Shown piece after piece: positions 1,772-38,681 of a DNA stretch of 41,388 nt. A program made the translations under genes and the position numbers. A model generated the notes under the pieces. The model did not search any database and was not told where the DNA came from. It was given only the letters and a program-made list of their open reading frames with translations. How positions within the stretch are numbered: position 1 is the stretch's first letter; every line of letters begins with the position of its first letter. The DNA comes from Thermodesulfovibrionales bacterium (lineage in GTDB: Bacteria > Nitrospirota > Thermodesulfovibrionia > Thermodesulfovibrionales > Dissulfurispiraceae), in NCBI GenBank assembly GCA_020062545.1, contig JAGUWD010000016.1, forward strand, positions 1-41,388. Direction: 5' to 3'.

Positions 1772-1790
1772 TTAAGGAGATACCCCCTTT

Positions 1791-3844: not shown

Positions 3845-3848
3845 GAAG

Positions 3849-4895
3849 ATGCCTTGGACAAAGATTAAATCTGACGTGAATGAGCCTAATTACTATTTGG
3901 AATCGGACGAGAACATTCGACGTTTATCCTATTCGGAGGCTATACGTGAAGCTATGGATCAAGCCCTGGAATTGGATCAGCGAGTTTTCATAATGGGACA
4001 AGGTGTAGACGATCCAGGAGCCATGTTCGGCACGACATTAAATCTCCACAAGAAATACGGGAGCCAGCGAGTATTCGATACCCCATTAGCCGAGAATGCC
4101 CTCACAGGTATTGCCACTGGCGCTGCCATTGGCGGAATGCGCCCAGTATATTTCCACAACCGGCCTGATTTTCTTTTTTTAGCAATGGATCAACTGGTGA
4201 ACCATGCATCCAAGTGGTATTACATGTTCGGTGGTGCTGTAAATGTCCCGATTGTCTTGTGGGCATGCATAGGCAGGGGTTGGGGTTCTGCTGCGCAGCA
4301 TTCCCAGGCGCTTCAGGGTCTTTTCATGCACATTCCGGGGCTCAAGCTTATCATGCCAAGTACTTGTTATGATGCCAAAGGACTCATGCTTTCCGCCATT
4401 GCTGATAATAATCCGGTTTTGATCATCGAGCACCGCTTGAACTTTCGCCATAAGGGGTTTGTTCCTGAAACACCATACCGCGTACCCATTGGTAAAGGAA
4501 TCATCAGAAAGCAGGGGAAGGATATTACTTTTGTCGCTATCTCACATATGGTTACGGAAGCTTACAAAGCGGCGGAGGAATTATCAAAGGAAGGGATTGA
4601 GGCCGAAGTGATTGATCTAAGAACCCTCCGCCCGTTAGATGAAGAAATTATCCTTCGTTCTGTATCAAAAACGGGCCGATTGTTGATTGCTGATTGCGGT
4701 TGGAAAACTGGAGGAATAACGGCAGAAATATCTGCGCTTGTTGCGGAAAAGGGTTTTGAGTTTTTAAAGGCGCCTATTCGCCGTGTGGCATGTCAAGACG
4801 TGCCGACCCCCTCTGGGTATACTTTAGAGGAGGCATTCTACGTTGGTAGCAATGATATTTTAAATGCTGCCCGTGAGATTCTTCAAATACGCTGA
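3849..4895 (+). CDS. Thiamine-diphosphate dehydrogenase E1 component, beta subunit
   Basis: This is the partner beta subunit of the E1 pair, with an N-terminal transketolase-type pyrimidine-binding domain and a C-terminal transketolase domain. The cofactor-activating Glu is kept in PLAENALTG (Glu at residue 82). The C-terminal half has EVIDLRTLRPLDEE, a strong E1 beta signature. Length of 348 residues is slightly longer than the usual 325 because of an N-terminal extension of about 25 residues before LSYSEAIREA. It follows the alpha subunit by 4 bp, and its stop overlaps the start of the radical SAM gene by one base. The substrate is probably pyruvate or another short 2-oxo acid. The acceptor is inferred to be a keto-sugar nucleotide rather than lipoamide because no E2 is nearby. 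Confidence 0.88.
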   Translation: MPWTKIKSDVNEPNYYLESDENIRRLSYSEAIREAMDQALELDQRVFIMGQGVDDPGAMFGTTLNLHKKYGSQRVFDTPLAENALTGIATGAAIGGMRPVYFHNRPDFLFLAMDQLVNHASKWYYMFGGAVNVPIVLWACIGRGWGSAAQHSQALQGLFMHIPGLKLIMPSTCYDAKGLMLSAIADNNPVLIIEHRLNFRHKGFVPETPYRVPIGKGIIRKQGKDITFVAISHMVTEAYKAAEELSKEGIEAEVIDLRTLRPLDEEIILRSVSKTGRLLIADCGWKTGGITAEISALVAEKGFEFLKAPIRRVACQDVPTPSGYTLEEAFYVGSNDILNAAREILQIR

Positions 4896-6433
4896 TGAAT
4901 ATGACCACCCTAAATCGTCGCTTAGACATACTTTTTGTCGAACCAGATTCTTCAGCAAAAGCATATCAAGATCTAAGTAAGACATATTCGGCGATAGAAA
5001 CTCCAACATGGAGCCTATTACTGGCCCAGTCCTGTCGTCGCAAAGGCTTTGGCGTTGCTATCTTGGATTGTAATGCGGAACACTTGACCGATGAGCAAGC
5101 CATACAAAGAATCCGAGATGTGAATCCCCGCCTGGTATGTTTTGTATTATATGGTCAGAATCCTAATTCCGGTACGACAAGCATGATTGGCGGTACTCGC
5201 CTGTGTGCCGAACTTAAGCAAGCCTATCCGGAGTATCTAACTTGTTTCGTGGGATCGCATGTCAGTGCATTACCAAGAGAAGTTTTATCTCATCCTTTTA
5301 TAGACATGGTCCTTCTTAACGAAGGAGTCTATGCATTGCACGATCTATTACGCTCTGACTTGAACGACGATCTGGATAAGATTAACGGTATAGGTTATAA
5401 AAGGGATGGCCATATTGTCCTTAACCCACCTCAGCAAGTTGTGCCACAACAAAGTATGGACAACGACTTACCTGGATATGCTTGGGATTTGCTGCCGTAT
5501 GATAAGAAGCCTTTGGATCTTTACAGAGCCCATTTCTGGCATACCAACTATAATCACGAACAACGAACTCCCTTTGCCGCCTTATACACATCACTTGGCT
5601 GCCCCTTTAAGTGCGATTTCTGCATGATCAATATCCTCAATAGAGTGGATAATTCTGATGAAGTAACTTCAGCAAATTCGTCTCATATTCGTTATTGGAC
5701 ACCCGAACTTATATTACGTGAATTTGATAAACTTGTCGAAATGGGTGTGCAGACAATAAGAATATCGGATGAAATGTTTTTTCTAAACAAAAGGCACTTT
5801 GAACCTCTAATCAAAGGGTTAATTGAGCGAGATTATGATTTAAGATTATGGGCTTATACTCGCGTGGATACAATAAAGCCAGAATATTTAGATATATTTA
5901 GACAAGCGGGTATCAAATGGTTGGCAATAGGTTTTGAGGCAGGTAACCAGCTTGTAAGACAAGAAGTTTCAAAAGGTAAGTTTAACGAACTTGATATTAG
6001 AGAAATAGTTAAATCAATTAATGATCATGGAATTAATGTTGCTGCAAATTACATTTTTGGCTTTCCAGGCGACAATTTTGCGACCATGCAACAAACTCTT
6101 GATTTAGCATGCGAACTAAATACACCATTTGCTAATTTTTATCCATGTATGGCATTGCCCGGTAGTCCATTGTATCTGAAAGCTTTACAAAATGGCTGGA
6201 AATTGCCCGATTCGTATGAAGGATATGCTTTTTTTTCAGACGAATGTCTGCCATTACCGACAAAATATCTTAGCGCTGCTGATGTTCTGAAGTTTCGAGA
6301 TGAAGCATGGCATAAGTACTATACGCGCACGGAATATTTAGATCTTATTGAACGAAAATTCGGTAAAGAGCAACGAAAAAATATTGAAGAATTAACGAAA
6401 ATTAAAATTAAACGAAAAATACTTGGGGACTGA
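4895..6433 (+). CDS. B12-binding-type radical SAM enzyme
   Basis: A radical S-adenosylmethionine enzyme with an N-terminal cobalamin-binding-like Rossmann domain (about residues 1-190) and a radical SAM barrel. The [4Fe-4S] cluster motif is CPFKCDFC, with cysteines at residues 236, 240 and 243. The loop after it includes KLVEMGVQTIRISDEMFF, and IGFEAGNQ is a further barrel strand. The C-terminal tail of about 40 residues is Lys-rich. No clear DxHxxG cobalamin-ligand motif is present, so the B12 may be bound base-off without a His ligand, or the domain may be vestigial. It overlaps the E1 beta stop by one base. Possible roles are C-methylation or another radical change of a sugar nucleotide; the sequence alone does not say which. 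Confidence 0.85.
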   Translation: MNMTTLNRRLDILFVEPDSSAKAYQDLSKTYSAIETPTWSLLLAQSCRRKGFGVAILDCNAEHLTDEQAIQRIRDVNPRLVCFVLYGQNPNSGTTSMIGGTRLCAELKQAYPEYLTCFVGSHVSALPREVLSHPFIDMVLLNEGVYALHDLLRSDLNDDLDKINGIGYKRDGHIVLNPPQQVVPQQSMDNDLPGYAWDLLPYDKKPLDLYRAHFWHTNYNHEQRTPFAALYTSLGCPFKCDFCMINILNRVDNSDEVTSANSSHIRYWTPELILREFDKLVEMGVQTIRISDEMFFLNKRHFEPLIKGLIERDYDLRLWAYTRVDTIKPEYLDIFRQAGIKWLAIGFEAGNQLVRQEVSKGKFNELDIREIVKSINDHGINVAANYIFGFPGDNFATMQQTLDLACELNTPFANFYPCMALPGSPLYLKALQNGWKLPDSYEGYAFFSDECLPLPTKYLSAADVLKFRDEAWHKYYTRTEYLDLIERKFGKEQRKNIEELTKIKIKRKILGD

Positions 6434-6525
6434 GCCAATACAACCAGATCCTGAAAATTTCATAATAGTAATTTCATAATCGATATCATCGTATAACTTC
6501 TATGACAGTCAACCGCGGAAATGCA

Positions 6526-7446
6526 ATGAATATAGATAGTTCTATATATGTTGTTGGTGAAAACACGCTGATTGGTGTAGCCATTCATCGGGCTTTGGAA
6601 AGAGCGGGCTACTGTAAAACTTTCAGTGAAAAAGGAGAAGATCTGAAAAATGTGTCACAGATTGATAGACTTTTCCGTGAAAGAAAACCCGAGTTCGTAT
6701 TCCTTGCGGCAGGGAAAACCGGCGGTATCGCTGCAAACATAAAGTATCCTGCAGATCTCATGCTGGATAATCTTTTAATTGCATGTAATATTATCGAATG
6801 TGCTCGCCGTTATAATGTTAAAAAATTGCTCTATCTTGCCAGTTCATGCAGTTACCCGCGGGATTGTGCTCAGCCTATGAAGGAGGAAGCTCTTCTCACA
6901 GGCCTTCTTGAACCGACCAATGTGGCCTATGCGGTAGCCAAGATTGCCGGCATCAAGCTATGCCAGGCTTACAAGTCCCAATATGGTTCCAATTTCATTG
7001 TAGGGATTCCAGCCAATGCCTTTGGACCAGGCGATGATTTCAGCGAGGAAGATTCCCATGTGGTGGCTGCCCTGATCCGTAAAATGCATGAGGCAAAAGT
7101 AAATGATAGAAAACAGGTGGAAGTTTGGGGAACTGGGAATCCCCAGCGGGAATTCATCTTCGTTGACGATCTGGCCGATGCATGCCTCTTTATTATGGAC
7201 AACTATGACACACCGGAACCCATTAATCTGGGGAGTGGCATGGCCTTTTCCATCCGGGACCTGGCAGAAGCAATCCGCGAGGTCGTAGGGTTTAATGGAT
7301 CGATCGTATATGACACGAGCAAACCGGACGGCATGCCCATAAAAAGTCTCGACAACAGTAAAATAAGAGACTTGGGGTGGTCTCCTTACTTTTCCTTGAG
7401 AGAGGGGCTGGCGATTACATATAACTGGTATCGAAAGGAATATTGA
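6526..7446 (+). CDS. GDP-L-fucose synthase-like epimerase/reductase
   Basis: A short-chain dehydrogenase of the GDP-fucose synthase (Fcl/WcaG) and ColC type, which epimerises and reduces GDP-4-keto-6-deoxy sugars using NADPH. Visible signatures are the SSCSYPRD stretch with catalytic Ser, the YAVAK Tyr-Lys pair (Tyr 135 from the chosen start), and the late GTGNPQREFIFVDDLA motif that is diagnostic for this branch. The nucleotide-binding loop is a divergent GENTLIG instead of the usual GHRGMVG. An earlier in-frame ATG exists at 6502, but only the one at 6526 has a GGAA ribosome site before it. No GDP-mannose 4,6-dehydratase is in the window, so its substrate must come from elsewhere. The neighbouring 3-dehydratase makes a ColC-like role plausible. 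Confidence 0.82.
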   Translation: MNIDSSIYVVGENTLIGVAIHRALERAGYCKTFSEKGEDLKNVSQIDRLFRERKPEFVFLAAGKTGGIAANIKYPADLMLDNLLIACNIIECARRYNVKKLLYLASSCSYPRDCAQPMKEEALLTGLLEPTNVAYAVAKIAGIKLCQAYKSQYGSNFIVGIPANAFGPGDDFSEEDSHVVAALIRKMHEAKVNDRKQVEVWGTGNPQREFIFVDDLADACLFIMDNYDTPEPINLGSGMAFSIRDLAEAIREVVGFNGSIVYDTSKPDGMPIKSLDNSKIRDLGWSPYFSLREGLAITYNWYRKEY

Positions 7447-7486
7447 TTATGACGAAAAAGAAAAGAGCTATTTGGAGCTATTGCAA

Positions 7487-8668
7487 ATGATAACCGAACA
7501 GAACCTGAACTTGCCTTTGATTAAAAACAATATTACCCGCACCGACCTGGATGCGGTCATTGCCTACTTATCACAAGACGATCCGGCGTTGACCCACTCG
7601 AAGCAGACGCTTGCCTTTGAGCGTGAATGGTCCGAGTGGCTTGGCGTCAAATACAGCGTTTTTGTTAATTCTGGCGCTTCAGCCAACCTCCTGACCATGA
7701 CCGCGCTAAAAGAGATGTTCGGGACAGGAGAGGTTGTTGTTCCACCCCTAACTTGGGTGTCCGACATTGCCGCAGTTCTCCAAAACGGATTTACACCTGT
7801 TTTTGTAGATATTAACCGACGCACGTTAGGAATGGATACGGCGCAGGTATTGGCCAGGCTCAACCCCAACACCCGCGCTGTATTTATTACGCATATCCTT
7901 GGCTACAATGCCCTCACACAGCAACTATTGGATGAACTGAAGCGCCGTAACATCCCCTTGATTGAGGATGTGTGCGAGTCGCACGGTGCGACCTTCAATG
8001 GGCGCAAACTTGGCACATACGGACTTATCTCCAATTTTTCATTCTATTATGCCCACCACATGAGCACCATCGAAGGCGGAGTGATATGCACCAACGATCG
8101 TGCTGTCTATGAAACTGTTCGCATGTTTCGCTCACACGGTATGGTGCGCGAAGCGACGTTAGACGAAATCAGGCGCTCATACATAACAAATCATCCTGAT
8201 CTGAATCCAGACTTTATCTTTGCCTTCCCCGCTTACAATGTACGACCTACTGAGATTGGCGCGGTGATTGGCCGTTCACAGCTCAAGAGGCTGGATGAGA
8301 ACAACAAGATACGCAGGCGAAATCTCGATTTGTTTCTCTCGCGTCTTGACCCGACCCAATACCAGACCGATTTTGCAGTCGAAGGCAGTTGTAATTATGC
8401 CTTTACTCTGGTGCTCAACAAGCCTGATACGGCACTGCGCGACCGGGTCGAGCAGTCGTTACGACAACACTGTGTCGAATTCCGCCGCGGGCTATCCGGC
8501 GGCGGCAACCAATTGCGCCAACCGTACTTGCGTAAAATCATGGGCAATGAATTTGAGCACTATCCGAATGTGAATCATGTTCATTTTTTCGGTTGGTATA
8601 TTGGAAATTATCCAGGGCTAGAAGAGGAAAAAATTGAGGCGTTGTGCCAACTACTGAATAATCTGTGA
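7487..8668 (+). CDS. PLP-dependent sugar 3-dehydratase, ColD-like (DegT fold)
   Basis: A DegT/DnrJ/EryC1/StrS-fold enzyme. The usual PLP-binding lysine in the K-N-x-x-x-x-EGG motif is replaced by His: the segment reads AHHMSTIEGG, with His at residues 190-191. This substitution defines the 3-dehydratases ColD (GDP-4-keto-6-deoxymannose 3-dehydratase) and E1 of the CDP-3,6-dideoxyhexose pathway. Those enzymes use PMP/PLP to remove the C3 hydroxyl instead of forming an amino sugar. The iron-sulfur cysteine pattern of E1 is absent, which favours the ColD branch. Length of 393 residues fits. The start is set by ATG 7487 with GGAG ten bases before it; an upstream TTG at 7472 is less likely. Its base composition is richer in GC than that of the flanking genes. 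Confidence 0.85.
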   Translation: MITEQNLNLPLIKNNITRTDLDAVIAYLSQDDPALTHSKQTLAFEREWSEWLGVKYSVFVNSGASANLLTMTALKEMFGTGEVVVPPLTWVSDIAAVLQNGFTPVFVDINRRTLGMDTAQVLARLNPNTRAVFITHILGYNALTQQLLDELKRRNIPLIEDVCESHGATFNGRKLGTYGLISNFSFYYAHHMSTIEGGVICTNDRAVYETVRMFRSHGMVREATLDEIRRSYITNHPDLNPDFIFAFPAYNVRPTEIGAVIGRSQLKRLDENNKIRRRNLDLFLSRLDPTQYQTDFAVEGSCNYAFTLVLNKPDTALRDRVEQSLRQHCVEFRRGLSGGGNQLRQPYLRKIMGNEFEHYPNVNHVHFFGWYIGNYPGLEEEKIEALCQLLNNL

Positions 8669-19711: not shown

Positions 19712-21103
19712 ATGAAAACTTTATTTGTTATGTATGATAATGAAGGCGCCCAGAATCCGATCCCTATGGGAACTTGTTACGTAGCAGGTTATCTAAAAAA
19801 AAACGGTTACGAAGACATCCATTACTGGAGTCAGGACATCTATCATTACCCTGAAGAACACCTGACAGAATATATTTCCGATAATAATTTTGATGTTGTC
19901 GGTTTGGGCTTTACTGCGGGATACTTTCAGTATAAGAAAATAGTAAGCATTTGCCAGGCAATAAATAAAGCGAAGAATAAACCTTTTCTTGTTCTGGGTG
20001 GGCATGGACCAACGCCGTTACCAGAGTTTTTCATAAAAGTTACAGGGGCAGATGCTGTGGTTATGGGTGAAGGTGAAACCCCTTTTTTAAATTTAATCAA
20101 GGCATTAGAGAATAAGACACCGCTTCATAATGTTAAGGGAATAGCTTTTGTCAAAAATGGAAATGATTGCATAGTAAATGAAAGAGAAACACCCATTAAG
20201 AATTTGGACACAATCCCACATCCTTACTACGAGCCGTTACCGATGGAATATTATTTAAATGCGAAGGTCTTCCAGATGAAGCCGACTGACCGAATGATAA
20301 ACATGATTACCAGTCGGGGGTGTAATTATAAATGTAATTTTTGCCAGAGATTAGAAAAGGGTATTCGTTTTCGTTCGGTTGGCAGTATTATAGATGAGTT
20401 AAAAAAATATGTCAGAGATTACCGGATTACTTATGTGGTCTTCTGGGATGAGCTTTTTATGTTCTCTGAAAAAAGAGTAGCTGAATTAACGGAAGGCATT
20501 TTAAGGGAAAATTTAAAGATTAATTATTGGTGTACAGGGAGACTGAATATCGTGAATCGAGAAATCCTTAAGATGCTAAAAAAATCAGGCTGTAGCTATA
20601 TCGATTACGGCATAGAACAATTTGACAATAATTCACTGCAAAAAATGAACAAAAAACAAACTGAAGAGGAAATAATAAGAGGTATTGAGCTGACACAAAA
20701 AGAAGGAATCCGCATAGGATTTAATATCATCTTTGGCAACCTCGGTGATACAATGGAATCGCTTAGGAAATCGATGGATTTGCTAAAAAAATATAATGAT
20801 TTTGGCCAGCTCAGAGTAATTCGACCTGTAACTCCTTATCCTGGCTCACCCTTGTACGATTTTGCAATTGTAAAAGGATTCCTAACGGGTCCAGAGGATT
20901 TTTACAATAAACATAAAAATGTTGAATCACTTACAGTTAATTTTACGGATATACCTGAAGAAGAGTTCTATAAATTAATGTTTGAGGCAAATGAAGAAGT
21001 AATAGAAGATTACTATAATCATTTTAAAGAAGAAGCTATTAAAAACTTTTATGATGTTTATTTCAAAGGTGGTTTAGATTTCAGAGGTGCAAGACATATC
21101 TAA
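19712..21103 (+). CDS. B12-binding-type radical SAM enzyme
   Basis: This is the second radical SAM protein, 463 residues. The N-terminal cobalamin-binding-like domain contains FLVLGGHGPTPLPEFF (the GGxHxTxxP region of B12 radical SAM proteins) and ADAVVMGEGE. The cluster motif is CNYKCNFC, with Cys at residues 204, 208 and 211. IDYGIEQFDN and GFNIIFGNLGDT are typical barrel strands. A strong GGAGG precedes the ATG. It differs from the protein at 4895 in most of its length, so the two are not recent copies. It may methylate or otherwise modify a sugar or lipid intermediate; context gives the glycan pathway but not the reaction. Confidence 0.84.
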   Translation: MKTLFVMYDNEGAQNPIPMGTCYVAGYLKKNGYEDIHYWSQDIYHYPEEHLTEYISDNNFDVVGLGFTAGYFQYKKIVSICQAINKAKNKPFLVLGGHGPTPLPEFFIKVTGADAVVMGEGETPFLNLIKALENKTPLHNVKGIAFVKNGNDCIVNERETPIKNLDTIPHPYYEPLPMEYYLNAKVFQMKPTDRMINMITSRGCNYKCNFCQRLEKGIRFRSVGSIIDELKKYVRDYRITYVVFWDELFMFSEKRVAELTEGILRENLKINYWCTGRLNIVNREILKMLKKSGCSYIDYGIEQFDNNSLQKMNKKQTEEEIIRGIELTQKEGIRIGFNIIFGNLGDTMESLRKSMDLLKKYNDFGQLRVIRPVTPYPGSPLYDFAIVKGFLTGPEDFYNKHKNVESLTVNFTDIPEEEFYKLMFEANEEVIEDYYNHFKEEAIKNFYDVYFKGGLDFRGARHI

Positions 21104-27830: not shown

Positions 27831-27855
27831 CGTAGGAGTCAAGTGCCCAAGCATT
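27831..27855 (-). repeat. Right terminal inverted repeat, 25 bp
   Basis: It begins CGTAGGAGTCAAGTG and ends AAGCATT. It pairs without mismatch with 27643-27667. Confidence 0.92.
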
Positions 27856-27895
27856 GGCACTTATTAACCGGAAACCGATTTTAAGGAGTAAAATT

Positions 27896-28831
27896 ATGAA
27901 GGTTCTTGTCACAGGTGGTGCAGGTTTTATCGGTTCGCATATTGTAGATGCACTAATTGGAGCTGGTCATGATGTCGTAGTGATAGATGATTTATTTACG
28001 GGTCATGAAAAAAATGTGAACCCTAAGGCTCGATTTTACAAGTTGGATATTAGGGATGCCGCTTTGTTTGATCTCTTTGCTGTCGAGAAATTTGATATTG
28101 TGAGCCATCAGGCGGCACGGGGCAACGTCCGGGCTTCCATGGCAGACCCCATGATATATGCTGATGTAAATGTGAGGGGAGGGATCAATTTGCTTGAATG
28201 TTGTCGAAAATTCGGAACAAAAAAAAGCATATACTCTTCTACCGGCGGATGTGTTTATGGTGAGTTGCAATATTTGCCCGCTGGAGAAAAACATCCCATT
28301 CAACCCCGCGACCCTTATGGTGCCAGCAAAGCCAGTTTCGAACTCTATCTGCCGGTTTATGCCATGAATTACGGTTTACACTATACGATATTACGATATC
28401 CCAACGTGTACGGTCCCCGGCAAGATCCTTTTGGTGAAGCTGGCGTTGTATCCATATTTATTGGGCAGATGCTCCAGGGCATACAAGCCATTATAAACGG
28501 TGATGGGGAACAACTGAGAGATTATGTTTATATCGCCGACGTGGTCCGCGCGAACATGTTAGCTTTAACAAAAGGAAATGGCGGTATATACAATCTCGGG
28601 TGGGGCACCGGGGTTTCTGTAAATCATATTTTTAGAAGTCTTAAGACGATGACAAACTATCTTCTTGACGAAGTCCATGGTCCTCCTAAGTTGGGCGAGG
28701 TTCGCAACTGCTACCTTGATGCCGGAAAGGTCAAACGTGAACTGGGGTGGAATCCACTGGTGACTTTTGATGAGGGTTTACGTCATACATTAGATTTCTT
28801 TCGGCCTATTTTTAAGAGGAATAAAATATGA
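27896..28831 (+). CDS. NAD-dependent sugar 4-epimerase/dehydratase (extended SDR)
   Basis: An extended SDR of 311 residues resembling UDP-glucose 4-epimerase. VLVTGGAGFIGSH is the NAD loop and YGASK gives the catalytic Tyr-Lys, preceded by SSTGGCVYG with the Ser/Thr. RYPNVYGPRQDP and the LGWNP C-terminal motif are typical. The ATG at 27896 has AAGGAG seven bases upstream. The frame extends back to a TTG at 27854, which lies in the end of the inserted repeat and is not a natural start. It ends in an ATGA overlap with the sugar kinase, so it opens the second heptose module. Confidence 0.87.
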   Translation: MKVLVTGGAGFIGSHIVDALIGAGHDVVVIDDLFTGHEKNVNPKARFYKLDIRDAALFDLFAVEKFDIVSHQAARGNVRASMADPMIYADVNVRGGINLLECCRKFGTKKSIYSSTGGCVYGELQYLPAGEKHPIQPRDPYGASKASFELYLPVYAMNYGLHYTILRYPNVYGPRQDPFGEAGVVSIFIGQMLQGIQAIINGDGEQLRDYVYIADVVRANMLALTKGNGGIYNLGWGTGVSVNHIFRSLKTMTNYLLDEVHGPPKLGEVRNCYLDAGKVKRELGWNPLVTFDEGLRHTLDFFRPIFKRNKI

Positions 28832-29832
28832 TTATAACACGAACTCCTTTCCGTTTTACCCTGGGTGGCGGAGGAACGGATTTGCCATCCTATTACTCAA
28901 AATATGGCGGTTTTATTTTTGCAGCTGCTATCAATAAGTATATGTTAATCAATCTTAATAGGCCGATTGTAGATGACTTAGTGAGGGTGAAGTATACTAA
29001 ATCCGAAATGGTAGAACACAGAGAGGAATTGAAGCACGATATAGCTAAAGAAGCCATGAGAATGATGGAGATAGAGAATGCTATTGAAATAATTTCCATG
29101 GCAGATGTGCCGGGAGGCACCGGCCTTGGTTCATCAAGCTGCTATGCTGTGGGTCTTTTGAATGGACTTCATGTGATGAAGCGTAAATATATTGGACTCC
29201 AGGAGTTGGCTGAAGAGGCTTGTGATCTGGAAATTAACCGCTTGGGAAAATCAATTGGTAAACAAGATCAGTATATGGCAGCCTTTGGAGGTCTTACGGT
29301 TCTCGATATTGATAAAGATGGAACAGTCCATGTGAGAAGTGCCGATATATCTGAAAACGTTATTGACGATTTAAATCGGAACTTGTTAATGTTTTATACA
29401 TATACATCAAGAAACGCTGATGCAATCCTTTCCGAACAAAGTATAGGCGCCAGGGAAGATAAAAAAAATATTGTCGATAATATGCATTATATTAAGGAGA
29501 TAGGCTATAAAATTTTGGAGGCTGTAAAAAGTGGCAATATTACCGATGTAGGATTACTGTTTGATCAGCATTGGGATTATAAGAAAAAAATATCTTCGCA
29601 GATGTCCAATAATCATTTTGATGAAATTTACAGAATAGCAAAAGAAAATGGCGCCCTTGGGGGTAAAATTACCGGGGCCGGTGGAGGTGGCTTTTTTGTT
29701 TTCTATGTGGAAAATAATTATGATAATTTTCGGCGAAAAATGAAAGAGGTAGGACTAAGAGAAATGCGTTATCGTTTTGATTTTGAAGGGTCGAAAGTAT
29801 TGGTTAACTTTATGAATTCTGTTCAGGAATAG
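28828..29832 (+). CDS. hddA: GHMP-family sugar kinase, heptose 7-phosphate 1-kinase-like
   Basis: This is the second HddA-type kinase, 334 residues. It opens with IITRTPFRFTLGGGGTD and carries the ATP loop GGTGLGSSS near residue 95, and GKITGAGGGGFF near residue 280. Compared with the kinase at 1791 it shares motifs but differs throughout, so both were probably acquired separately or diverged long ago. The GmhA-, GmhB- and nucleotidyltransferase-like genes 4-6 kb downstream would complete a GDP-heptose route starting from sedoheptulose 7-phosphate. It is translationally coupled to the epimerase gene. Confidence 0.86.
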   Translation: MIITRTPFRFTLGGGGTDLPSYYSKYGGFIFAAAINKYMLINLNRPIVDDLVRVKYTKSEMVEHREELKHDIAKEAMRMMEIENAIEIISMADVPGGTGLGSSSCYAVGLLNGLHVMKRKYIGLQELAEEACDLEINRLGKSIGKQDQYMAAFGGLTVLDIDKDGTVHVRSADISENVIDDLNRNLLMFYTYTSRNADAILSEQSIGAREDKKNIVDNMHYIKEIGYKILEAVKSGNITDVGLLFDQHWDYKKKISSQMSNNHFDEIYRIAKENGALGGKITGAGGGGFFVFYVENNYDNFRRKMKEVGLREMRYRFDFEGSKVLVNFMNSVQE

Positions 29833-29840: not shown

Positions 29841-31130
29841 ATGAAACAGGTTAAGATCGGTGTCGTTGGTTTATGGCATCTTGGTTGTATTCTTTGTTCT
29901 GCTTGGTCAAAATTGGGTAACCGTGTAATTGGTTTTGATTACGATTCCTCCTTGATTAATAATCTTCGGCAGGCGATACCACCCCTTTTTGAACCGGATT
30001 TAGCAGAATCTATAAGACGAAGTTTTGATGAGAAATCACTTTCATTTTCAGATGAGATTCAATCTCTTTCTGAATGTGATTTCATTTTTTTGTCTTATGA
30101 CACGCCGGTTCTTGATGATGATTCAAGCGATACAAGTATTTTGGAAAAGGCAGTGAAAGATATCGCTCAGGTGATGAAAAAACAATCGGTGATCATTGTC
30201 AGTTCGCAGTCGCCTGTGGGCTTTTGTTCTTTATTAAGGGGAAATCTCAAAGAAATTGACGACTCATTTGATTTGGCCTATTCGCCTGAGAATCTTAGAC
30301 TTGGTGAGGCTATGCAATGCTATTTAAATCCGGGGAGGATCATTCTCGGAACGGTAGACCAGGATACAGAAACCAAGTGTAAAAATTTATTTTCACAAAT
30401 TCCTGCTGAAATCCTGAGTATGAATCTTGAGAGCGCAGAGATGGTGAAGCATGGAATCAATTCATTTCTATCAATGAGTATTGTCTTTGCGAATCATCTT
30501 TCCGATATTTGTGAAGCAACGGGCGCCCGCATCGATGATGTGGTCAAAGGAATGAAAACAGATCCCCGAATCGGCCCAAAGGCCTATATGTCCCCTGGGA
30601 TCGGTTTCTCCGGTGGGACATTAGGCAGGGATTTGAAAGTGTTGGATCAAAAAAATGAGGATTTTAAGGGACAAGCGGTTCTATTCGGTCTGATTCACAC
30701 GCTTAATCAAGAAAGAAAAAATGTCATTGTTAATAAATTGGAAAGAATCGTGGGATCTCTAAGTGGTAAATCTATAGGGCTTCTCGGTTTAACTTATAAG
30801 CCGGCTACGAGTACCCTGCGCAGAAGCTTACCCTTGGAGATTGCCGAATTACTGATCTTAAAAAATGCAACTGTGAAAGTCTATGATCCGAAGGCGGACT
30901 TTGGTGAATTGGATAAAAAACCCAACTTCATTATTGAACCAAACATAGAGACATTGGCCAAGGAAGCAGATGGCCTTGTCCTTTTAACTGAATGGCGTGA
31001 GTTCAGTCAATATGATTGGGAAAGAATTCCTAAAACCATGCGCAACGCCGTTTTCTTTGATACGAAAAACTATCTAAATGAATCGATCATGTGTAGCGCG
31101 GGATTCAGTTATTATGCAATAGGGAGGTAA
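29841..31130 (+). CDS. Nucleotide-sugar dehydrogenase family, catalytic Cys replaced by Thr
   Basis: A UDP-glucose/GDP-mannose dehydrogenase-fold protein with its N-terminal NAD domain, central domain and C-terminal UDP-binding-type domain all present across 429 residues. IGVVGLWHLGC is a modified glycine loop, and YSPENLRLGEA is the conserved central segment. AEMVKHGIN keeps the catalytic Lys (203) and Asn (207). The catalytic cysteine motif GFGGSCFPKD reads GFSGGTLGRD, so the nucleophilic Cys is Thr260. Without it the usual two-step oxidation to a uronic acid should not proceed by a thioester. The protein may stop at the aldehyde, act on a different carbon, or have another function. It lies among heptose genes. 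Confidence 0.82.
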   Translation: MKQVKIGVVGLWHLGCILCSAWSKLGNRVIGFDYDSSLINNLRQAIPPLFEPDLAESIRRSFDEKSLSFSDEIQSLSECDFIFLSYDTPVLDDDSSDTSILEKAVKDIAQVMKKQSVIIVSSQSPVGFCSLLRGNLKEIDDSFDLAYSPENLRLGEAMQCYLNPGRIILGTVDQDTETKCKNLFSQIPAEILSMNLESAEMVKHGINSFLSMSIVFANHLSDICEATGARIDDVVKGMKTDPRIGPKAYMSPGIGFSGGTLGRDLKVLDQKNEDFKGQAVLFGLIHTLNQERKNVIVNKLERIVGSLSGKSIGLLGLTYKPATSTLRRSLPLEIAELLILKNATVKVYDPKADFGELDKKPNFIIEPNIETLAKEADGLVLLTEWREFSQYDWERIPKTMRNAVFFDTKNYLNESIMCSAGFSYYAIGR

Positions 31131-31134: not shown

Positions 31135-31992
31135 ATGGGAGTATTAGATTTAAAAAATATCGTTATTACAGGCGGGAGCCTTGGTATCGGTTTAGAAATT
31201 GCGAAAAAAGCAGTAACTGCAAGTGCGCGGGTTATCATTGCTGCAAGGAACGAGGGTGATTTAAAAAAAGCTTTAGAGGATGTGAGAAGGATTTCCGATA
31301 ATGGTCATCAAATATATAAAATTGATGTTGGTCAATACGATGAGGTGCGGACTTTTGCTAGCTGGTGCGCTGAGCGGTTTGGAACTATCGAGGGCTTGGT
31401 CAATTGTGCTGGAGTTTATGGGCCGATTGGAAAGTTACCTCAGATCGACATCAAGAAGTTTGATGAAGCCATTCGCATTAATTTATTAGGCACAGTTTAT
31501 ATGTGTCATGCCTTTATCCCCATTATGAAGGCTGCTACGCGAAAGAAAATTATCAATTATTCGGGTGGTGGTGCAGCAACGCCCTTCCCCCACTATATGG
31601 CCTATGCAACAAGTAAAATAGCTATAGTCCGTTTTACAGAAAATCTTGCCTTAGAGATGAGTGATGATGGTTTCGACGTGAATTGTGTGGCGCCGGGATT
31701 TGTTATTACCCGATTGCACCAGGATACCTTGTCTGCAGGGCCGGAATTAGCTCAGCAATCCTTTTATGAAAACACAAAAAAACAGATAGAAAGCGGTGGC
31801 GTGCCGGCAGAAAAGGCGGCAAATCTGACAGTCTATCTTTTATCGGAGGCTTCGGATGGGATAACCGGGAAGTTTATCTCAGCCCCTTGGGATGCATGGG
31901 AGGAAGAAGCATTTCGAGAAAGATTAAGGATCGATAAGGATTTTGCGACGCTAAGGCGTATAGATGACAAAACGTTTTTCAAGAAGAATTGA
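31135..31992 (+). CDS. Short-chain dehydrogenase/reductase
   Basis: A classical SDR of 285 residues. TGGSLGIGLEIA is the cofactor loop, NCAGVYG the structural motif, NYSGGGA the catalytic Ser, and YATSK the Tyr-Lys pair. VAPGFVITRLHQDT matches the substrate loop. The C-terminal 40 residues extend beyond the core and are rich in charged residues. GGGAGG precedes the start. It lies between the Cys-less dehydrogenase and an oxidoreductase, so it probably acts on a keto- or aldehyde-heptose intermediate. Confidence 0.85.
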   Translation: MGVLDLKNIVITGGSLGIGLEIAKKAVTASARVIIAARNEGDLKKALEDVRRISDNGHQIYKIDVGQYDEVRTFASWCAERFGTIEGLVNCAGVYGPIGKLPQIDIKKFDEAIRINLLGTVYMCHAFIPIMKAATRKKIINYSGGGAATPFPHYMAYATSKIAIVRFTENLALEMSDDGFDVNCVAPGFVITRLHQDTLSAGPELAQQSFYENTKKQIESGGVPAEKAANLTVYLLSEASDGITGKFISAPWDAWEEEAFRERLRIDKDFATLRRIDDKTFFKKN

Positions 31993-32006: not shown

Positions 32007-33038
32007 ATGGATAATAAGGTGATTAAAGTCGGGATTGTAGGCTGTGGCTTAATAGGCAAAAAAAGGGCCGCTGTCATTAAAAATGATCGGCATTCAAAAT
32101 TTATCTGTACCGCAGATGTTGCAGTGGGTACTGCTAAGGATTTGAATCCTCAAAGCTATTATGCTAATTGGGCGGATATGCTTGCGACGGAGGAGCTTGA
32201 TGCAGTTGTCGTAGCGACACCGAACAGATTTCTTAAGGAAATTGCGTTGGCGGCCATTCAAAAAGGGATTCATGTTCTTTGTGAGAAGCCCCTTGGCAGA
32301 AATGTCCTGGAATCTGCGGAGATGGTAGAAGCCGCAAAACAACATGGCGTTATCCTCAAAACAGGATTCAATCACCGGCATCATCCGGCAATATGGAAGG
32401 CACATGAACTTGTTGTAAGTGGGGGGATCGGACCCATTTATTTTATTCGCTGTATTTATGGTCACGGCGGTCGTCCCGGTTATGAAAAGGAATGGCGGGC
32501 CAGCAAGGATATTTGCGGCGGTGGAGAACTCTTGGATCAAGGGGTTCATGTCGTCGATCTTTTCCGGTGGTTTCTGGGTGATTTTGAGGAAGCCTTTGGT
32601 TATACGCCAACATATTTCTGGAAGATGGATGTTGAAGACAATGCCTTTGCTGTTTTCAAAACGGCGGCAGGGCAAATAGCTTCCATGCACACCTGTTGGA
32701 CACAATGGAAAAATCGCTTTACGTTCGAGATATTCGGCGAGGCAGGCTACTTAATCATCGAGGGATTGGGGGGAAGCTACGGTCCTGAAAAATTAACTGT
32801 TGGTAAACGTCCAAAGAAAGATCGGGAATACATCGGGGGCATTCCTGACGAAGAAGTTATAATTTTCGATGGTCCGGACATGTCGTGGGATTTGGAGTGG
32901 AAAGAATTTGTACAAGCCATTCAGGAATCACGAGAACCTTTGGGAAGTGGGCGAGACGGTCTGGAAGCCAATCGCTTGCTGGCAGCTGTTTATTGTTCTG
33001 CTAAAGAACACAGGCATGTGAAAATCAGCGAGGTTTGA
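32007..33038 (+). CDS. Gfo/Idh/MocA-family sugar oxidoreductase
   Basis: This is the third Gfo/Idh/MocA oxidoreductase, 343 residues. VGIVGCGLIGKKRA binds NAD(P), HVLCEKPLGRN is the EKP motif, and GGGELLDQGVHVVDLFRWFLG holds the conserved Asp-xxx-His of the active site. The C-terminal region GPDMSWDLEWKEFVQAIQE is typical of sugar-nucleotide members. It starts 14 bp after the SDR and is followed after 3 bp by a nucleotidyltransferase. In this setting it likely oxidises or reduces a ring carbon of a heptose derivative. Confidence 0.86.
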   Translation: MDNKVIKVGIVGCGLIGKKRAAVIKNDRHSKFICTADVAVGTAKDLNPQSYYANWADMLATEELDAVVVATPNRFLKEIALAAIQKGIHVLCEKPLGRNVLESAEMVEAAKQHGVILKTGFNHRHHPAIWKAHELVVSGGIGPIYFIRCIYGHGGRPGYEKEWRASKDICGGGELLDQGVHVVDLFRWFLGDFEEAFGYTPTYFWKMDVEDNAFAVFKTAAGQIASMHTCWTQWKNRFTFEIFGEAGYLIIEGLGGSYGPEKLTVGKRPKKDREYIGGIPDEEVIIFDGPDMSWDLEWKEFVQAIQESREPLGSGRDGLEANRLLAAVYCSAKEHRHVKISEV

Positions 33039-33041: not shown

Positions 33042-33773
33042 TTGAAAGCGATGATCCTGGCTGCCGGAATGGGGACCCGGCTGAAACAACTAACGGATAA
33101 CAGGCCGAAATGCCTGATGCCTTTGGCGGGGCGTCCGTTGATTGAGTGGACATTAAGCTGGTTGAAAGAACATGGCGTTACAGAATGCGTGATCAATCTT
33201 CATTATCTTCCGGAACAGGTCAAGGCGTTTATATGTGACGGGTCGCAATTTGGTTTGAAGGTCCATTATTCATTCGAGCAGATATTGTTGGGGACGGCGG
33301 GCGCCGTTAAGAAGGTGGCGGATTTCTTTGATGAACCCTTTTATCTCATCTATGGTGATAATTTCAGCCAATGCAACTTACAGGAACTGAGAGATGTTTT
33401 TGAACTCCAGCGGACTATCGCAGTAATGGCCGTCCACTGGCGGGAAGATGTGTCGCAGAGTGGCATGATTGAAATTGCGGAGAATGGACATATCCAGAGG
33501 ATCATTGAAAAACCGAAAAGCGAAGAAGTGACCAGCCATTATGTTAATGCCGGATTTTTCTTCATGGATCCAAGGATATTTCAGTTTATTCCTCCGGATC
33601 AGTATTGTGATTTCAGCTATGAGGTTTTTCCCAAGGTTCTCCATGCAAGTCAAAAAATGTATGCGGTGAAGATGGATGAGCCGATCATCGGGATTGATAC
33701 CTTGGAGGCTTATGAAAGAGCGAATGTTCTTGCGGAGAAAATTTCCTTGGGGATGGCTGATAAAAGACGCTAA
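33042..33773 (+). CDS. Sugar-1-phosphate nucleotidyltransferase
   Basis: This nucleotidyltransferase of 243 residues resembles both HddC and mannose-1-phosphate guanylyltransferases. LAAGMGTRL is the NTP loop followed by RPKCLMPLAGRPLIEW. LLGTAGAV and YGDNF are the base and metal sites, and KPKSEE and NAGFFFMDP complete the fold. It starts with TTG three bases after the preceding stop, with GCGAGG upstream; no ATG precedes the NTP loop except one three codons in. Its stop abuts the ATG of the next gene. With the kinase at 28828 it forms the second activation pair of the locus. Confidence 0.84.
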   Translation: MKAMILAAGMGTRLKQLTDNRPKCLMPLAGRPLIEWTLSWLKEHGVTECVINLHYLPEQVKAFICDGSQFGLKVHYSFEQILLGTAGAVKKVADFFDEPFYLIYGDNFSQCNLQELRDVFELQRTIAVMAVHWREDVSQSGMIEIAENGHIQRIIEKPKSEEVTSHYVNAGFFFMDPRIFQFIPPDQYCDFSYEVFPKVLHASQKMYAVKMDEPIIGIDTLEAYERANVLAEKISLGMADKRR

Positions 33774-34703
33774 ATGAGAATTCTGATCACTGGGGTTGCC
33801 GGATTTATTGGGTCCAATCTTGCGGATCGGCTATTAATGGAAGGCCATGATGTTATCGGTATTGATAACCTTGTTTATGGTTTGCGCCTGAATGTTCCGG
33901 ATGGTGTGGTGTTTCATCTTCAAGATATACGGGATAAAGACATGTATTCCCTTTTCAATGGGGTCGATGTTGTCTTTCACTTTGCCGCGAAGAATTGCAT
34001 TGCCGACTGTCAATGCGATCCGGTGGGAACCGCCGATATCAACGTCAGAGGGACAGTTAATGTTTTTGAAGCGGCAAAGCGGGCAATGGTGAAAAAGATC
34101 GTCTATGCAGAGAGTTCCGCTTTGTATGAAGGATGTTGCAAGTATCCCACCTCTGAATGTAATGAAGCGCCGGAAAGTTTCTATGCCGTCAGCAAGATGT
34201 CTTCAAAGTACTTCGCTGATGCGTATCATCGCTATTTTGGGCTTATCTTTACAGCCTTGCGGTATTTTTGCGTCTATGGACCAGTACAGGATTACCGCCG
34301 AACCATTCCGCCGGTGATGAGCGCTTTCATTATTAAACTTCTGAAGGGTGAGCCTCCCATTATTTACGGCACGGGTGAAAAGCGGCGTGATTTTGTATAT
34401 GTGGATGATATCAACGATTTTCATGTCCAGTGTTTGACGGATGAACGAACGGATAATCAGGTTTTTAACCTTGGTTCGGGGGTAAATTATTCCGTCAATG
34501 AAATTTATTCGATGATCGCGGATTTGCTGGACATTCGTATCTCGCCAGTTCGAAAGCCTGATTTGCCCGGTGAGGCAGAAACGACTTTGGCAGATATTTC
34601 TGCGGCGCAGGGTTTGGGATGGATAGTTAAGACAGACCTTCGCACGGGCATGAAACATGCGATCTCCTATATTAAAAGTGAAATGGAGAAAGGAAACATA
34701 TGA
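33774..34703 (+). CDS. NAD-dependent sugar epimerase/dehydratase (extended SDR)
   Basis: An extended SDR of 309 residues, beginning directly with RILITGVAGFIGSNLADRL. YAVSK gives the catalytic Tyr-Lys and AESSALYEG the Ser. RYFCVYGPVQDYRRTIPPV and YGTGEKRRDFVYVDD are typical of nucleotide-sugar 4-epimerases. The start codon follows the upstream stop with no gap, and the end overlaps the SIS gene as ATGA. It probably epimerises the GDP-heptose made by its neighbours. C4 of the sugar is the common target of the family, but C3 or C5 chemistry is possible. Confidence 0.86.
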   Translation: MRILITGVAGFIGSNLADRLLMEGHDVIGIDNLVYGLRLNVPDGVVFHLQDIRDKDMYSLFNGVDVVFHFAAKNCIADCQCDPVGTADINVRGTVNVFEAAKRAMVKKIVYAESSALYEGCCKYPTSECNEAPESFYAVSKMSSKYFADAYHRYFGLIFTALRYFCVYGPVQDYRRTIPPVMSAFIIKLLKGEPPIIYGTGEKRRDFVYVDDINDFHVQCLTDERTDNQVFNLGSGVNYSVNEIYSMIADLLDIRISPVRKPDLPGEAETTLADISAAQGLGWIVKTDLRTGMKHAISYIKSEMEKGNI

Positions 34704-35299
34704 CATCCTACGTGGCTGACTACCTTAAGGAAGTTCACTCAGTAATTGATGGGTTGGATAGGAATAAGATCGAAAAAATGATTCGCCTCCTGATTAAGGT
34801 TCGCGAAGATGCAGGACGTCTTTTTATTCTTGGTGTCGGTGGCGGGGCGGGCAATGCCGCCCATGCAGTGAATGACTTCAGGAAAATCTGTGGGATTGAA
34901 AGCTATACCCCCACGGACAATGTCTCGGAATTAACGGCGCGTGTGAATGATGACGGCTGGGACACCTCGTTTGTGAATTGGTTGAAAGGGAGTCGATTGA
35001 GAAAAAACGATGGGGTCTTCGTATTTTCAGTAGGCGGGGGCAATTCAGAAAAGAACATCAGTATGAATCTGGTTAAGGCCCTCGAATATGCGAAAGAAGT
35101 TAATGCCAAGGTATTTGGCATCGTAGGACGGGATGGCGGTTACACGGCAAAAGTCGCCGATGCCTGTGTGATCATTCCCACGGTAAACCCGGAAACGGTG
35201 ACGCCTCATACGGAATCTTTCCAGGCTGTCGTCTGGCATCTTCTCGTTTCCCATCCGGACATGAAAATTTCTGAGATGAAATGGGAAAGCGTGAAGTGA
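34700..35299 (+). CDS. gmhA: SIS-domain sugar phosphate isomerase, GmhA-like
   Basis: A SIS-domain protein of 199 residues, the size of GmhA (sedoheptulose 7-phosphate isomerase). FILGVGGGAGNAAHAVNDF is the phosphate-binding loop with the GmhA-type Gly-Asn-Ala-His pattern, FVFSVGGGN is the second phosphate site, and PETVTPHTESFQAVVWHLL holds the catalytic Glu/His region of GmhA. It would convert sedoheptulose 7-phosphate into D-glycero-D-manno-heptose 7-phosphate. It overlaps its neighbours on both sides: ATGA with the epimerase and 19 bp with the phosphatase. Confidence 0.85.
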   Translation: MTSYVADYLKEVHSVIDGLDRNKIEKMIRLLIKVREDAGRLFILGVGGGAGNAAHAVNDFRKICGIESYTPTDNVSELTARVNDDGWDTSFVNWLKGSRLRKNDGVFVFSVGGGNSEKNISMNLVKALEYAKEVNAKVFGIVGRDGGYTAKVADACVIIPTVNPETVTPHTESFQAVVWHLLVSHPDMKISEMKWESVK

Positions 35300-35826
35300 A
35301 AGCGGTATTTCTTGATCGCGATGGTGTCTTAATTCATTCTCTCGTACGCAATGGGAAGCCCTATTCCCCTAATAGACTCAGTATGATGAAAATTATTAAG
35401 GGAGTACCTGAGGCCTGTCACCGCTTGAAAAAAGCAGGCTTTTTATTGATAGTTGTCACAAATCAGCCAGATGTTGCGCGGGGTAAGCAAAGTCTCGAAG
35501 TCGTGGAAGAGATGAATAATAGGCTTCTTAGTATACTTCCCATAGATGACATTCAGGCTTGCTACCATGATGACGTTGACAATTGCATCTGCCGTAAACC
35601 TAAGCCTGGACTTTTATTCAATGCAGCTATTAATTGGAGTATTGATATTAGAAAAAGTTACCTCGTAGGCGATCGATGGAGGGATATTGAAGCAGGACGA
35701 TCTGCGGGTTGTACAACGATTTTTATTGACTACGGTTATGATGAAAGTGTGCAAAGCAAGGCAGACATAACCTTAAAATCATTGGAGGAGGCATCTCAAT
35801 GGATAATCTCCAAAGAACAGACATAA
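35281..35826 (+). CDS. gmhB: HAD phosphatase, GmhB-like (heptose 1,7-bisphosphate 7-phosphatase)
   Basis: A HAD-superfamily phosphatase of 181 residues in the HisB-N/GmhB family. VFLDRDGVL gives the nucleophile Asp12 and the acid Asp14. TNQPDVARG is motif II. The zinc-binding region CYHDDVDNCICRKPKPG has the Cys, His, Cys, Cys pattern of GmhB. VGDRWRDIEAG supplies motif IV. It would remove the 7-phosphate from heptose 1,7-bisphosphate made by the HddA-like kinase. It begins inside the end of the GmhA-like gene and overlaps the transaldolase gene by 28 bp. Confidence 0.86.
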   Translation: MGKREVKAVFLDRDGVLIHSLVRNGKPYSPNRLSMMKIIKGVPEACHRLKKAGFLLIVVTNQPDVARGKQSLEVVEEMNNRLLSILPIDDIQACYHDDVDNCICRKPKPGLLFNAAINWSIDIRKSYLVGDRWRDIEAGRSAGCTTIFIDYGYDESVQSKADITLKSLEEASQWIISKEQT

Positions 35827-36588: not shown

Positions 36589-37701
36589 TTGCGGATAGCG
36601 ATTGTTAATTTAACTGCTGGAGGGATGAGTGGGGGGTACCGTAAATACCTGCAGAATATACTGCCATTAATGGCAAAAGATAAACGGGTTGATGGGTTAG
36701 AAGTATATATACCTGTTGGCCATGCCGATATTTTTTCTAATAATGCGTTCTCATTGCATAATATACCCGCAGACAATGTGTCTAACAATAAGACTTGGTT
36801 AAGAAATGAATTGGTCACGCACCAGTTCGATGTTGTCTTTATTCCATCCGCCATGTGGATCAACTGTGGTAAAACGCCGTTCGTCACCATGATTCAAAAT
36901 ATGGAGCCGCTTGTCGTCCCTTTTCAGGGAAATCCGCTGAAGGAGTGCATAAAGAATATCGGTCGTTACATGGCTAATCTATATGCGTGCAGGCGAGCAC
37001 ACAGGGTGATCGCTATTTCGAAATTTGTGAAAACGTATTTGACTGAGAAATGGAGGATCGCATCGGATCGCATCGATCTTGTCTATCATGGCATTGACCT
37101 CACTACTCAGGCAAGCGCGGATGATCATGGCGCCATCGCGTTACTAAAATCATTTCTATTTATTTTCACCGCTGGCTCAATACGGCCGGCCCGAGGATTA
37201 GAAGACATTATTCGGGCATTAGCGATTCTGAATACAGAACAGCCCGTTCAATTGGCCGTTGGTGGAAATGTGGATCCCGGAATGGAGCCCTATTTTAGTA
37301 AATTGAAGAAAATGGCTGAAAATTTAGGAATAACAGAACGTATTCATTGGCTCGGCAAAATGAATGATTCTGAAATGGCTTGGTGTTACTCTCATTGCGA
37401 TGCTTTCATTATGACCAGCCGTGTTGAAGCCTGCCCTAATATCGCCTTGGAGGCAATGAGCTACGGCTGCGTGAATATTGCCTCTGAAAACCCACCACTG
37501 CCGGAATTTTTTGGTAATTCAGCTTTTTACTATCCGCCAAAAGACGCCAAGACACTGGCTCAATTGATTCGGAAGGTTTTATCTTTGGATAAGCCCGAAA
37601 AAGATGCCCTATCCAATACTGGCAAAAGTATTGCCTCCAAGTTTTCATGGGAAGTGTGTGCTCAGAAAACCGTAAGTGAATTACAGAAAGCCTTAATTTG
37701 A
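36589..37701 (+). CDS. Family 4 glycosyltransferase
   Basis: A GT-B transferase of about 370 residues. The N-terminal part RIAIVNLTAGGMSGGYRKYL is the acceptor domain opening. The donor domain has FTAGSIRPARGLEDIIRAL and the diagnostic SRVEACPNIALEAMSYG with the Glu that contacts the nucleotide sugar. I chose TTG 36589 because GGAGAAAG lies about ten bases before it and family members begin at this point. An ATG at 36535 would overlap the transaldolase gene and add 18 unconserved residues. It is coupled by a one-base overlap to the next gene. Confidence 0.86.
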   Translation: MRIAIVNLTAGGMSGGYRKYLQNILPLMAKDKRVDGLEVYIPVGHADIFSNNAFSLHNIPADNVSNNKTWLRNELVTHQFDVVFIPSAMWINCGKTPFVTMIQNMEPLVVPFQGNPLKECIKNIGRYMANLYACRRAHRVIAISKFVKTYLTEKWRIASDRIDLVYHGIDLTTQASADDHGAIALLKSFLFIFTAGSIRPARGLEDIIRALAILNTEQPVQLAVGGNVDPGMEPYFSKLKKMAENLGITERIHWLGKMNDSEMAWCYSHCDAFIMTSRVEACPNIALEAMSYGCVNIASENPPLPEFFGNSAFYYPPKDAKTLAQLIRKVLSLDKPEKDALSNTGKSIASKFSWEVCAQKTVSELQKALI

Positions 37702-38681
37702 TGTTTGCTGTAATCGTTGATAAATTGGCCGCTCACAATGCAGGACTTTCTGATCAGTTCTCAAGTTCTTTCGTTGACATAGGATTGCTTGCCGCATTCA
37801 ATGAGGCAAGGTCTATATTCATAAAGCCTAACCTGACCTACCCTCATTTCAAGGCGGGGGTTACAACCCGGGGAGATTTCGTTGCGGCTCTCGTTGCCGC
37901 GTTGCGAAATATAAACACAACGACGAAAATATATATAGGCGAGGGCGAAGGAGGATATAACAGCTTCTCAATGACGGATGCCATGAAGGGTATGGGATTC
38001 TATGAAATTGCAGAAACCTATCCAAATGTTGAAATCGTAAATTTATCTCACCTGGAGACACGTACGGTAGAATTGCAAGCTAACGGGAAGCCATATTCAC
38101 TGAAACTTCCTGAATTATTTTTCAGCGACATCGATTTTTCCATCACCTGCCCCCTCCCAAAAGTTCACTGCATGACGGGAATCACCCTTTCGTTCAAGAA
38201 TCAATGGGGGTGCCTGCCGGATACGATGCGTCTGAAGAATCATTATGTGTTTGATGAAATTATCAGCCAAGTTTGCGATGTTCTAAGATTTCGTTATGCA
38301 TTCTTAGATGGGAGGTATGGTCTGGACAACAATGGTCCTATGATGGGTGACCCAGTAGAAATCAATTGGTTTGCAGCCTCAAATTCATTGGGGGCTTTTG
38401 ATCGGGTTGTGTCCGGCATGATGGGGTTTAATTGGCAACGGATTGGCCATTTGAAGATGGCAGAGAAATACGGGTTCATGCCAGGGAAAGATGAAATTCA
38501 AATCATCGGAGATCCTGTTACTTTGAAAAGGAGATTTACACTAAAAAGAAATTATTGGAATTACCCTGCACTTGCGGCTTTTCATTCCAAGCAACTAACG
38601 CACCTGTTTTATTTTTCCATGTGGGCGAAACTGCTCCATGACATCATGTATACATTTCGCAAGAGGCCCATTGCTCCATGA
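37701..38681 (+). CDS. DUF362-domain protein
   Basis: A DUF362 protein of about 326 residues without the C-terminal ferredoxin domain found in many members. Family segments are IFIKPNLTYPH near residue 37, IYIGEGEGGYNSF, DIDFSITCPLPKVHCMTGITLSFKNQWGC and DGRYGLDNNGPMMGDP. The function of DUF362 proteins is not established; some are iron-sulfur proteins and others occur in polysaccharide loci. No transmembrane segment is obvious, but the last 40 residues are aromatic. The start is ATG 37701, overlapping the upstream stop as TGATG. It ends in an ATGA overlap with wecB. Confidence 0.8.
   Translation: MFAVIVDKLAAHNAGLSDQFSSSFVDIGLLAAFNEARSIFIKPNLTYPHFKAGVTTRGDFVAALVAALRNINTTTKIYIGEGEGGYNSFSMTDAMKGMGFYEIAETYPNVEIVNLSHLETRTVELQANGKPYSLKLPELFFSDIDFSITCPLPKVHCMTGITLSFKNQWGCLPDTMRLKNHYVFDEIISQVCDVLRFRYAFLDGRYGLDNNGPMMGDPVEINWFAASNSLGAFDRVVSGMMGFNWQRIGHLKMAEKYGFMPGKDEIQIIGDPVTLKRRFTLKRNYWNYPALAAFHSKQLTHLFYFSMWAKLLHDIMYTFRKRPIAP

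Follow-up and report, generated by a model that had tools for sequence, protein, structure and literature searches.

The closest described relatives of the protein studied here are the UDP-glucose dehydrogenases (UGDs), including human UGDH, S. pyogenes HasB, Sphingomonas UgdG (4a7p), a Porphyromonas enzyme (3gg2) and Burkholderia BceC (2y0e), with which it shares a full-length three-domain fold. Across 229 NDP-sugar dehydrogenases, 18 residues are invariant, including Gly9, Thr118, Gly257 and Cys260; the tyrosine at position 10, conserved in 98%, catalyses thioester hydrolysis, Thr118 binds the catalytic water and Asp264 is the general base (PMC4794789). The catalytic cysteine has been replaced in human UGDH: in the C276S mutant a covalent adduct piles up, whereas C276A, given UDP-glucose, stops short of the end product but can still oxidise aldehyde that is supplied to it (PMC3184952). 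Loss of the cysteine alone thus does not exclude acid formation, and the view of the initial annotation, that Ser or Ala mutants lose the second oxidation, is too simple. GDP-mannose 6-dehydrogenase and UDP-ManNAc dehydrogenase (AlgD, WecC, Cap5O) have the superfamily and the domains in common with our protein but retain the catalytic Cys and Thr118, which it and its clade lack (WecC aligned; PMC4794789).

In gene content, the nearest described system is the GDP-D-glycero-D-manno-heptose pathway (GmhA, HddA, GmhB, HddC), in which the same isomerase, kinase, phosphatase and nucleotidyltransferase families occur, grouped with sugar-modifying oxidoreductases. In Campylobacter jejuni, SDR-type enzymes that extend this pathway act on GDP-heptose. 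The locus described below adds to this set a dedicated TIGR02134 transaldolase, a Cys-less UGD-family dehydrogenase (UGDL), a classical SDR and a Gfo/Idh enzyme.

A UGD-fold protein with altered active-site residues

The window, that is, the whole stretch of 41,388 nucleotides that was analysed, encodes UGDL in an open reading frame with an ATG start and a stop-free interior (Table 1). All three UDPG_MGDP_dh domains (N, central and C) exceed their Pfam cut-offs, and TIGR03026 scores 293 bits against a cut-off of 190, whereas the WecC-type model is a far weaker match (113 bits, cut-off 459). The nearest solved structures are the UGDs 3gg2, 4a7p and 3vtf; the AF2 model (mean pLDDT 94.7) matches UGD structures over its full length with Z scores of 44–46 at about 28% identity, 4a7p being the top match (Z 46). 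By sequence and fold, UGDL is a member of the UGD/NDP-sugar dehydrogenase superfamily. The same genome also holds an ordinary UGD (G000:C33) that is 30% identical to UGDL, so UGDL is not a substitute for UGD. Its nearest relatives, among the best 80 of 407 found by a profile search of the genome collection, lie in a Thermodesulfobacteriota MAG (65% identity) and a Bacillota-labelled MAG (64%).

Table 1. Features of the UGDL locus, in window coordinates.
Feature	Position	Strand	Remarks
Extended SDR, NAD-dependent epimerase family	27854..28831	+	Pfam Epimerase; true start probably ~27896
GHMP kinase, HddA-like (heptose 7-phosphate kinase)	28828..29832	+	161 bits vs cut-off 600; 3k85
UGDL (Cys-less UGD-family dehydrogenase)	29841..31130	+	429 aa; ORF, Pfam, NCBIfam, AF2 model
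GLWHLG dinucleotide motif	29868..29885	+	His13 for Tyr10, Trp12 for invariant Gly9
Ser122-Gln123	30204..30209	+	Gln123 for invariant Thr118
Glu150-Asn-Leu-Arg-Leu154	30288..30302	+	Glu141 kept; Asn151 for Phe; Leu154 for Glu145
Lys203 to Asn207 segment	30447..30461	+	Lys 88/88, Asn 87/88 in clade
GFSGGTLGRD codons, residues 255-264	30603..30632	+	Thr260 for catalytic Cys, Asp264 kept
Classical short-chain dehydrogenase (SDR)	31135..31992	+	Tyr157/Lys161 kept
Gfo/Idh/MocA oxidoreductase	32007..33038	+	Glu93-Lys94-Pro95 and His181 kept
Sugar-1-phosphate nucleotidyltransferase	33042..33773	+	HddC model 104 bits vs cut-off 300
Second extended SDR, epimerase/dehydratase family	33774..34703	+	Pfam, NCBIfam
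SIS isomerase, distant GmhA relative	34700..35299	+	gmhA model 47 bits vs cut-off 209
HAD phosphatase, GmhB-like	35281..35826	+	GmhB model 116 bits vs cut-off 178
Transaldolase-type aldolase TIGR02134	35799..36566	+	324.1 bits vs cut-off 281.95; true start ~35856

The initial annotation had read the catalytic motif GFGGSCFPKD as GFSGGTLGRD, with Thr in place of Cys and with the catalytic Lys203 and Asn207 retained, and alignment bears this out. Residues 252–264 (PGIGFSGGTLGRD) align with PG.GFGGSCFPKD of ordinary UGDs, the Thr260 codon lies at 30618–30620, and Lys203 and Asn207 correspond to Lys204 and Asn208 of the S. pyogenes enzyme. A joint alignment set 88 nearer Cys-less relatives beside 66 Cys-type proteins. 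The latter were picked by similarity to UGDL and come mostly from one bacterial order and from genomes with the cassette. At position 260 the alignment has Thr in 88/88 and Cys in 66/66, but the groups were sorted by the motif itself (GGTxxRD versus the Cys motif), and the contrast at positions 258–264 therefore partly restates the sorting. Positions 123, 151 and 154, distant from the motif, split the two groups equally cleanly: Gln in 88/88 against Thr in 66/66 at 123, Asn in 88/88 against mostly Phe at 151, and Leu in 88/88 against mostly Glu at 154. Residue 13 is His throughout the clade (88/88) and mostly Tyr in ordinary UGDs, Trp12 is found in 87/88, and residue 259 is Gly in 88/88 where ordinary UGDs mostly have Ser. 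Gly257 of S. pyogenes UGD is Ser257 in UGDL and mostly Ala or Ser across the clade, and Pro262 has become Gly or Ala. The changes at Gly9, Tyr10, Thr118, Glu145 and Gly257, all of them conserved positions, had escaped the initial annotation.

The machinery of the first oxidation is kept. Lys203 and Asn207 are accompanied by Asp264 (88/88), and Glu150 (Glu141 of UGD) and Arg243 (Arg244) are likewise invariant (88/88 each), as are, nearly or wholly, the NAD contacts D33 (87/88), T88 (82/88) and R327 (88/88), the equivalents of Asp29, Thr83 and Arg327. The relatives were retrieved with the patterns [VLT]ESAEM[TV]K and GLWHLG, so the conservation of Glu200, Lys203, Trp12 and His13 is partly built in. 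The hallmarks of a four-electron 6-dehydrogenase, Cys260 together with Thr118 and Tyr10, are absent from UGDL and from all 88 relatives. As read from the alignment, this pattern fits the loss of the second half-reaction.

A widespread clade and its conserved cassette

Searching the genome collection with a profile built from four members gave 407 relatives, and since the best 80 of these were carried forward, the counts of 88/88 apply to nearer relatives. The same scan of viral contigs gave 19 loci with the alignment and no match with the single UGDL sequence. Every full-length relative from the scan fell in the GGT class (0 outside it). The 88 relatives compared come from more than 20 phyla, archaea included, and span 31–73% identity (median pairwise identity 39%, minimum 31%, in a 47-member sample). 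In trees computed without the motif columns, a single branch separates the Cys-less proteins from the rest (SH-aLRT 96, or 100 when long branches are left out). Judged from tree and alignment, the GGT-motif proteins are one conserved and widespread clade, as the initial annotation had proposed to look for, and the scattered motif that it would have taken as a sign of decay was not observed. Decay or sequencing artefact is ruled out by the 88/88 conservation across relatives. In its exact form the motif is rare in the window's phylum: a DNA pattern search of 295 genomes hit just the window and one further site that is probably a chance match. An otherwise ordinary UGD paralogue with GYGGSDLPKD, carrying Asp for the catalytic Cys (L206:9333-10664, G312:C17), represents a separate loss outside the clade; the Acetobacterium-labelled MAG that encodes it also holds a UGDL locus (L024).

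In the window, UGDL lies in a run of same-strand sugar genes whose ends overlap or nearly touch, in the order epimerase, HddA-like kinase, UGDL, SDR, Gfo/Idh, nucleotidyltransferase, epimerase, SIS, HAD and transaldolase, and the catalytic residues of the companions are intact. A common gene set was first suggested by plasmid matches in Rhizobium jaguaris and Lawsonia intracellularis. Among the complete arrangements elsewhere, one of the commonest runs epimerase, UGDL, SDR, Gfo/Idh, kinase, nucleotidyltransferase, SIS, HAD, transaldolase. Among 59 UGDL loci of at least 13 kb, companions sought only through similarity to window genes were the SDR (56), Gfo/Idh (52), kinase (51), SIS (42), nucleotidyltransferase (40), transaldolase (36) and HAD (35), with a mean of 5.3 of these 7 types within 10 kb; the first two figures agree with the SDR and Gfo/Idh enzymes that the initial annotation placed next to UGDL. 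Directly 3' of UGDL comes the SDR in 69/89 loci, and directly 5' of UGDL an epimerase-family gene in 53/89.

Loci of Cys-type UGDs look different: 36/39 had none of the seven companion types, two of the three exceptions are Cys-type UGDs inside cassette loci (L028, L029), and the third has one weak HAD match. Companion genes were likewise lacking around 21 additional UGD-family paralogues in genomes with the cassette (0/21). TIGR02134 exceeded its cut-off in 0/14 control genomes, and it did so elsewhere in the genome in 9 of 16 genomes picked because no full-length match was seen beside UGDL. From gene neighbourhoods, then, the UGDL clade is bound to a conserved cassette of apparent heptose type, in keeping with the suggested tie to heptose genes. 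No description of the clade or the cassette was found in the open-licence literature, which is weak evidence of novelty.

Other genes of the window also concern glycans. A DUF362 protein (37698–38681) stands directly after the glycosyltransferase that follows the cassette, and a close relative (510 bits) adjoins the cassette in L024 as well. A second sugar cluster (75–8668) comprises an epimerase, a nucleotidyltransferase, an HddA-like GHMP kinase, a B12-binding radical SAM protein, another epimerase, a DegT aminotransferase and E1-type and transketolase-type subunits of a TPP enzyme, and might produce a sugar that is branched-chain or C-C-modified. One glycan region contains two B12-binding radical SAM proteins (19712–21103 and 4895–6433).

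The sugar and the reaction

The isomerase, kinase, phosphatase and nucleotidyltransferase families are homologous to those of the heptose pathway, hence a heptose reading, and the nucleotide cannot be read from homology. PDB matches of the SIS protein are phosphoheptose isomerases only, and for the GHMP kinase the nearest proteins are heptose phosphate kinases (3k85, E 1.9e-39), but all four proteins score below the equivalog cut-offs for GmhA, HddA, GmhB and HddC (Table 1). We infer from this sub-cut-off similarity that the cassette sugar is of heptose type. A better GmhA lies on another contig of the same genome (G000:C34:95356-95814, 199 bits, near the cut-off), so the genome holds at least two different heptose-type isomerases. 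The SIS protein of the cassette would then be a specialised paralogue whose substrate may differ from the ordinary one, and the cassette sugar may not be ordinary D-glycero-D-manno-heptose.

We lean, by little more than an even chance, towards UGDL being a working NAD-dependent dehydrogenase of UGD fold that no longer runs the second half-reaction and oxidises the sugar produced by the neighbouring enzymes just once, by two electrons. In such a pathway the transaldolase would supply sedoheptulose 7-phosphate, the SIS protein would isomerise it to an aldoheptose 7-phosphate, the GHMP kinase would add a 1-phosphate, the HAD enzyme would remove the 7-phosphate and the nucleotidyltransferase would make the NDP-heptose. 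UGDL would oxidise this with Lys203, Asn207 and the water bound by Asp264, and the SDR, the Gfo/Idh enzyme and the epimerase would remodel the product, the first two reducing or oxidising neighbouring positions of the sugar. As to chemistry, we tentatively prefer, with well under even confidence, a reaction in which the secondary hydroxyl at C6 of the heptose, which would sit where C6 of glucose sits in UGD, is oxidised to a ketone. A C6 ketone has no hydrogen left and cannot be oxidised again; Cys260 (thiohemiacetal), Tyr10 (thioester hydrolysis) and Thr118 (water) would all be dispensable and would have lost their purpose together. The changes Ser259 to Gly and Pro262 to Gly or Ala may make room for C7. 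Against this explanation, Gly9 to Trp is an unusual change in a dinucleotide motif and NAD binding could be altered, the oxidation of aldehyde by C276A is a reminder that Cys loss does not strictly imply two-electron chemistry, and the heptose assignment comes from sub-cut-off similarity with a better GmhA elsewhere in the genome.

The same residue pattern would be expected if UGDL oxidised a primary alcohol (heptose C7 or hexose C6) to the aldehyde only, for the SDR, so often the next gene, or the Gfo/Idh enzyme to use. This possible but not preferred reading is rather unlikely in our estimate: a free aldehyde might be over-oxidised, as the human C276A enzyme oxidises added aldehyde (PMC3184952), and an aminotransferase, a usual user of oxidised sugars, is not seen inside contiguous, fully annotated cassettes. 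Of the initial annotation's enzymatic idea, then, the part concerning the second half-reaction agrees with the residues, and the aldehyde product and the GDP-heptose substrate are candidates only. C276A and the invariance of Asp264 (88/88), the base that activates water, could even be taken to allow full four-electron oxidation to a uronic acid without Cys, for instance of an aldehyde hydrate with His13 and Asp264, but the same mutant does not finish from UDP-glucose (PMC3184952) and Thr118 and Tyr10 are replaced too in 88/88, which leaves this course improbable. We also regard as a minor prospect a redox-neutral UGDL that cycles bound NAD in each turnover, as in C6/C5 epimerisation or in a redox pair of UGDL and SDR; Gly9 to Trp and Tyr10 to His alter the dinucleotide loop, and phage mini-forms (below) still show the signature although their C-terminal domain is gone entirely and their NAD domain in part, but the full-length proteins keep D33, T88 and R327. 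A decaying or non-catalytic paralogue, finally, is suggested by the lost nucleophile and by the isolated loss of GGSDLPKD type in L206, and is scarcely credible given the intact operon, the retention of Lys, Asn and Asp, and uniform changes in 88/88 relatives from more than 20 phyla at 31–73% identity.

Phage mini-forms and significance

Viral contigs (L109–L118 and L122) encode UGDL mini-forms of 216–275 aa (for example L110:9908-10651, L116:8667-9462 and L118:9956-10654), in which the signatures S[ST]Q.PVG, PEN and ESAEM[VT]KH are kept, the NAD domain is shortened and the C-terminal NDP-binding domain is missing. The mini-form of L118 stands beside epimerase, kinase, SIS, transaldolase and nucleotidyltransferase genes, and that of L110 beside an SDR, 3' of phage-type exonuclease and endonuclease genes. 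These predicted proteins suggest a central site able to work, or to be reused, without the usual nucleotide grip. Further matches in phage records stood at 27–32% identity. One record, L215 (ON073792, Aphanizomenon phage Yong-DA), has an exopolysaccharide region (Wzy, Wzc-like and export proteins) around its UGD gene and lacks the cassette, and may be a bacterial contig rather than a phage.

Databases label members of the clade 'nucleotide sugar dehydrogenase' (e.g. the Lawsonia copy), which implies a uronic acid as product. The preferred reading, a single secondary-alcohol oxidation by a UGD-fold enzyme, would instead place these proteins in an undescribed and wide nucleotide-sugar pathway, spread over bacteria, CPR bacteria, archaea and phages, that makes a heptose-derived sugar via a keto intermediate, a proposal that we put forward as conceivable rather than probable. 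The clade is in any case a natural test of the roles of Cys, Tyr10 and Thr118, all three being removed and the first oxidation site kept, and the cassette is complete enough for in vitro rebuilding with purified enzymes. If the preferred reading is true, the present annotation is misleading in hundreds of genomes, which would also have an uncharacterised surface sugar, and the UGD superfamily would gain a new reaction and surface sugars a new class.
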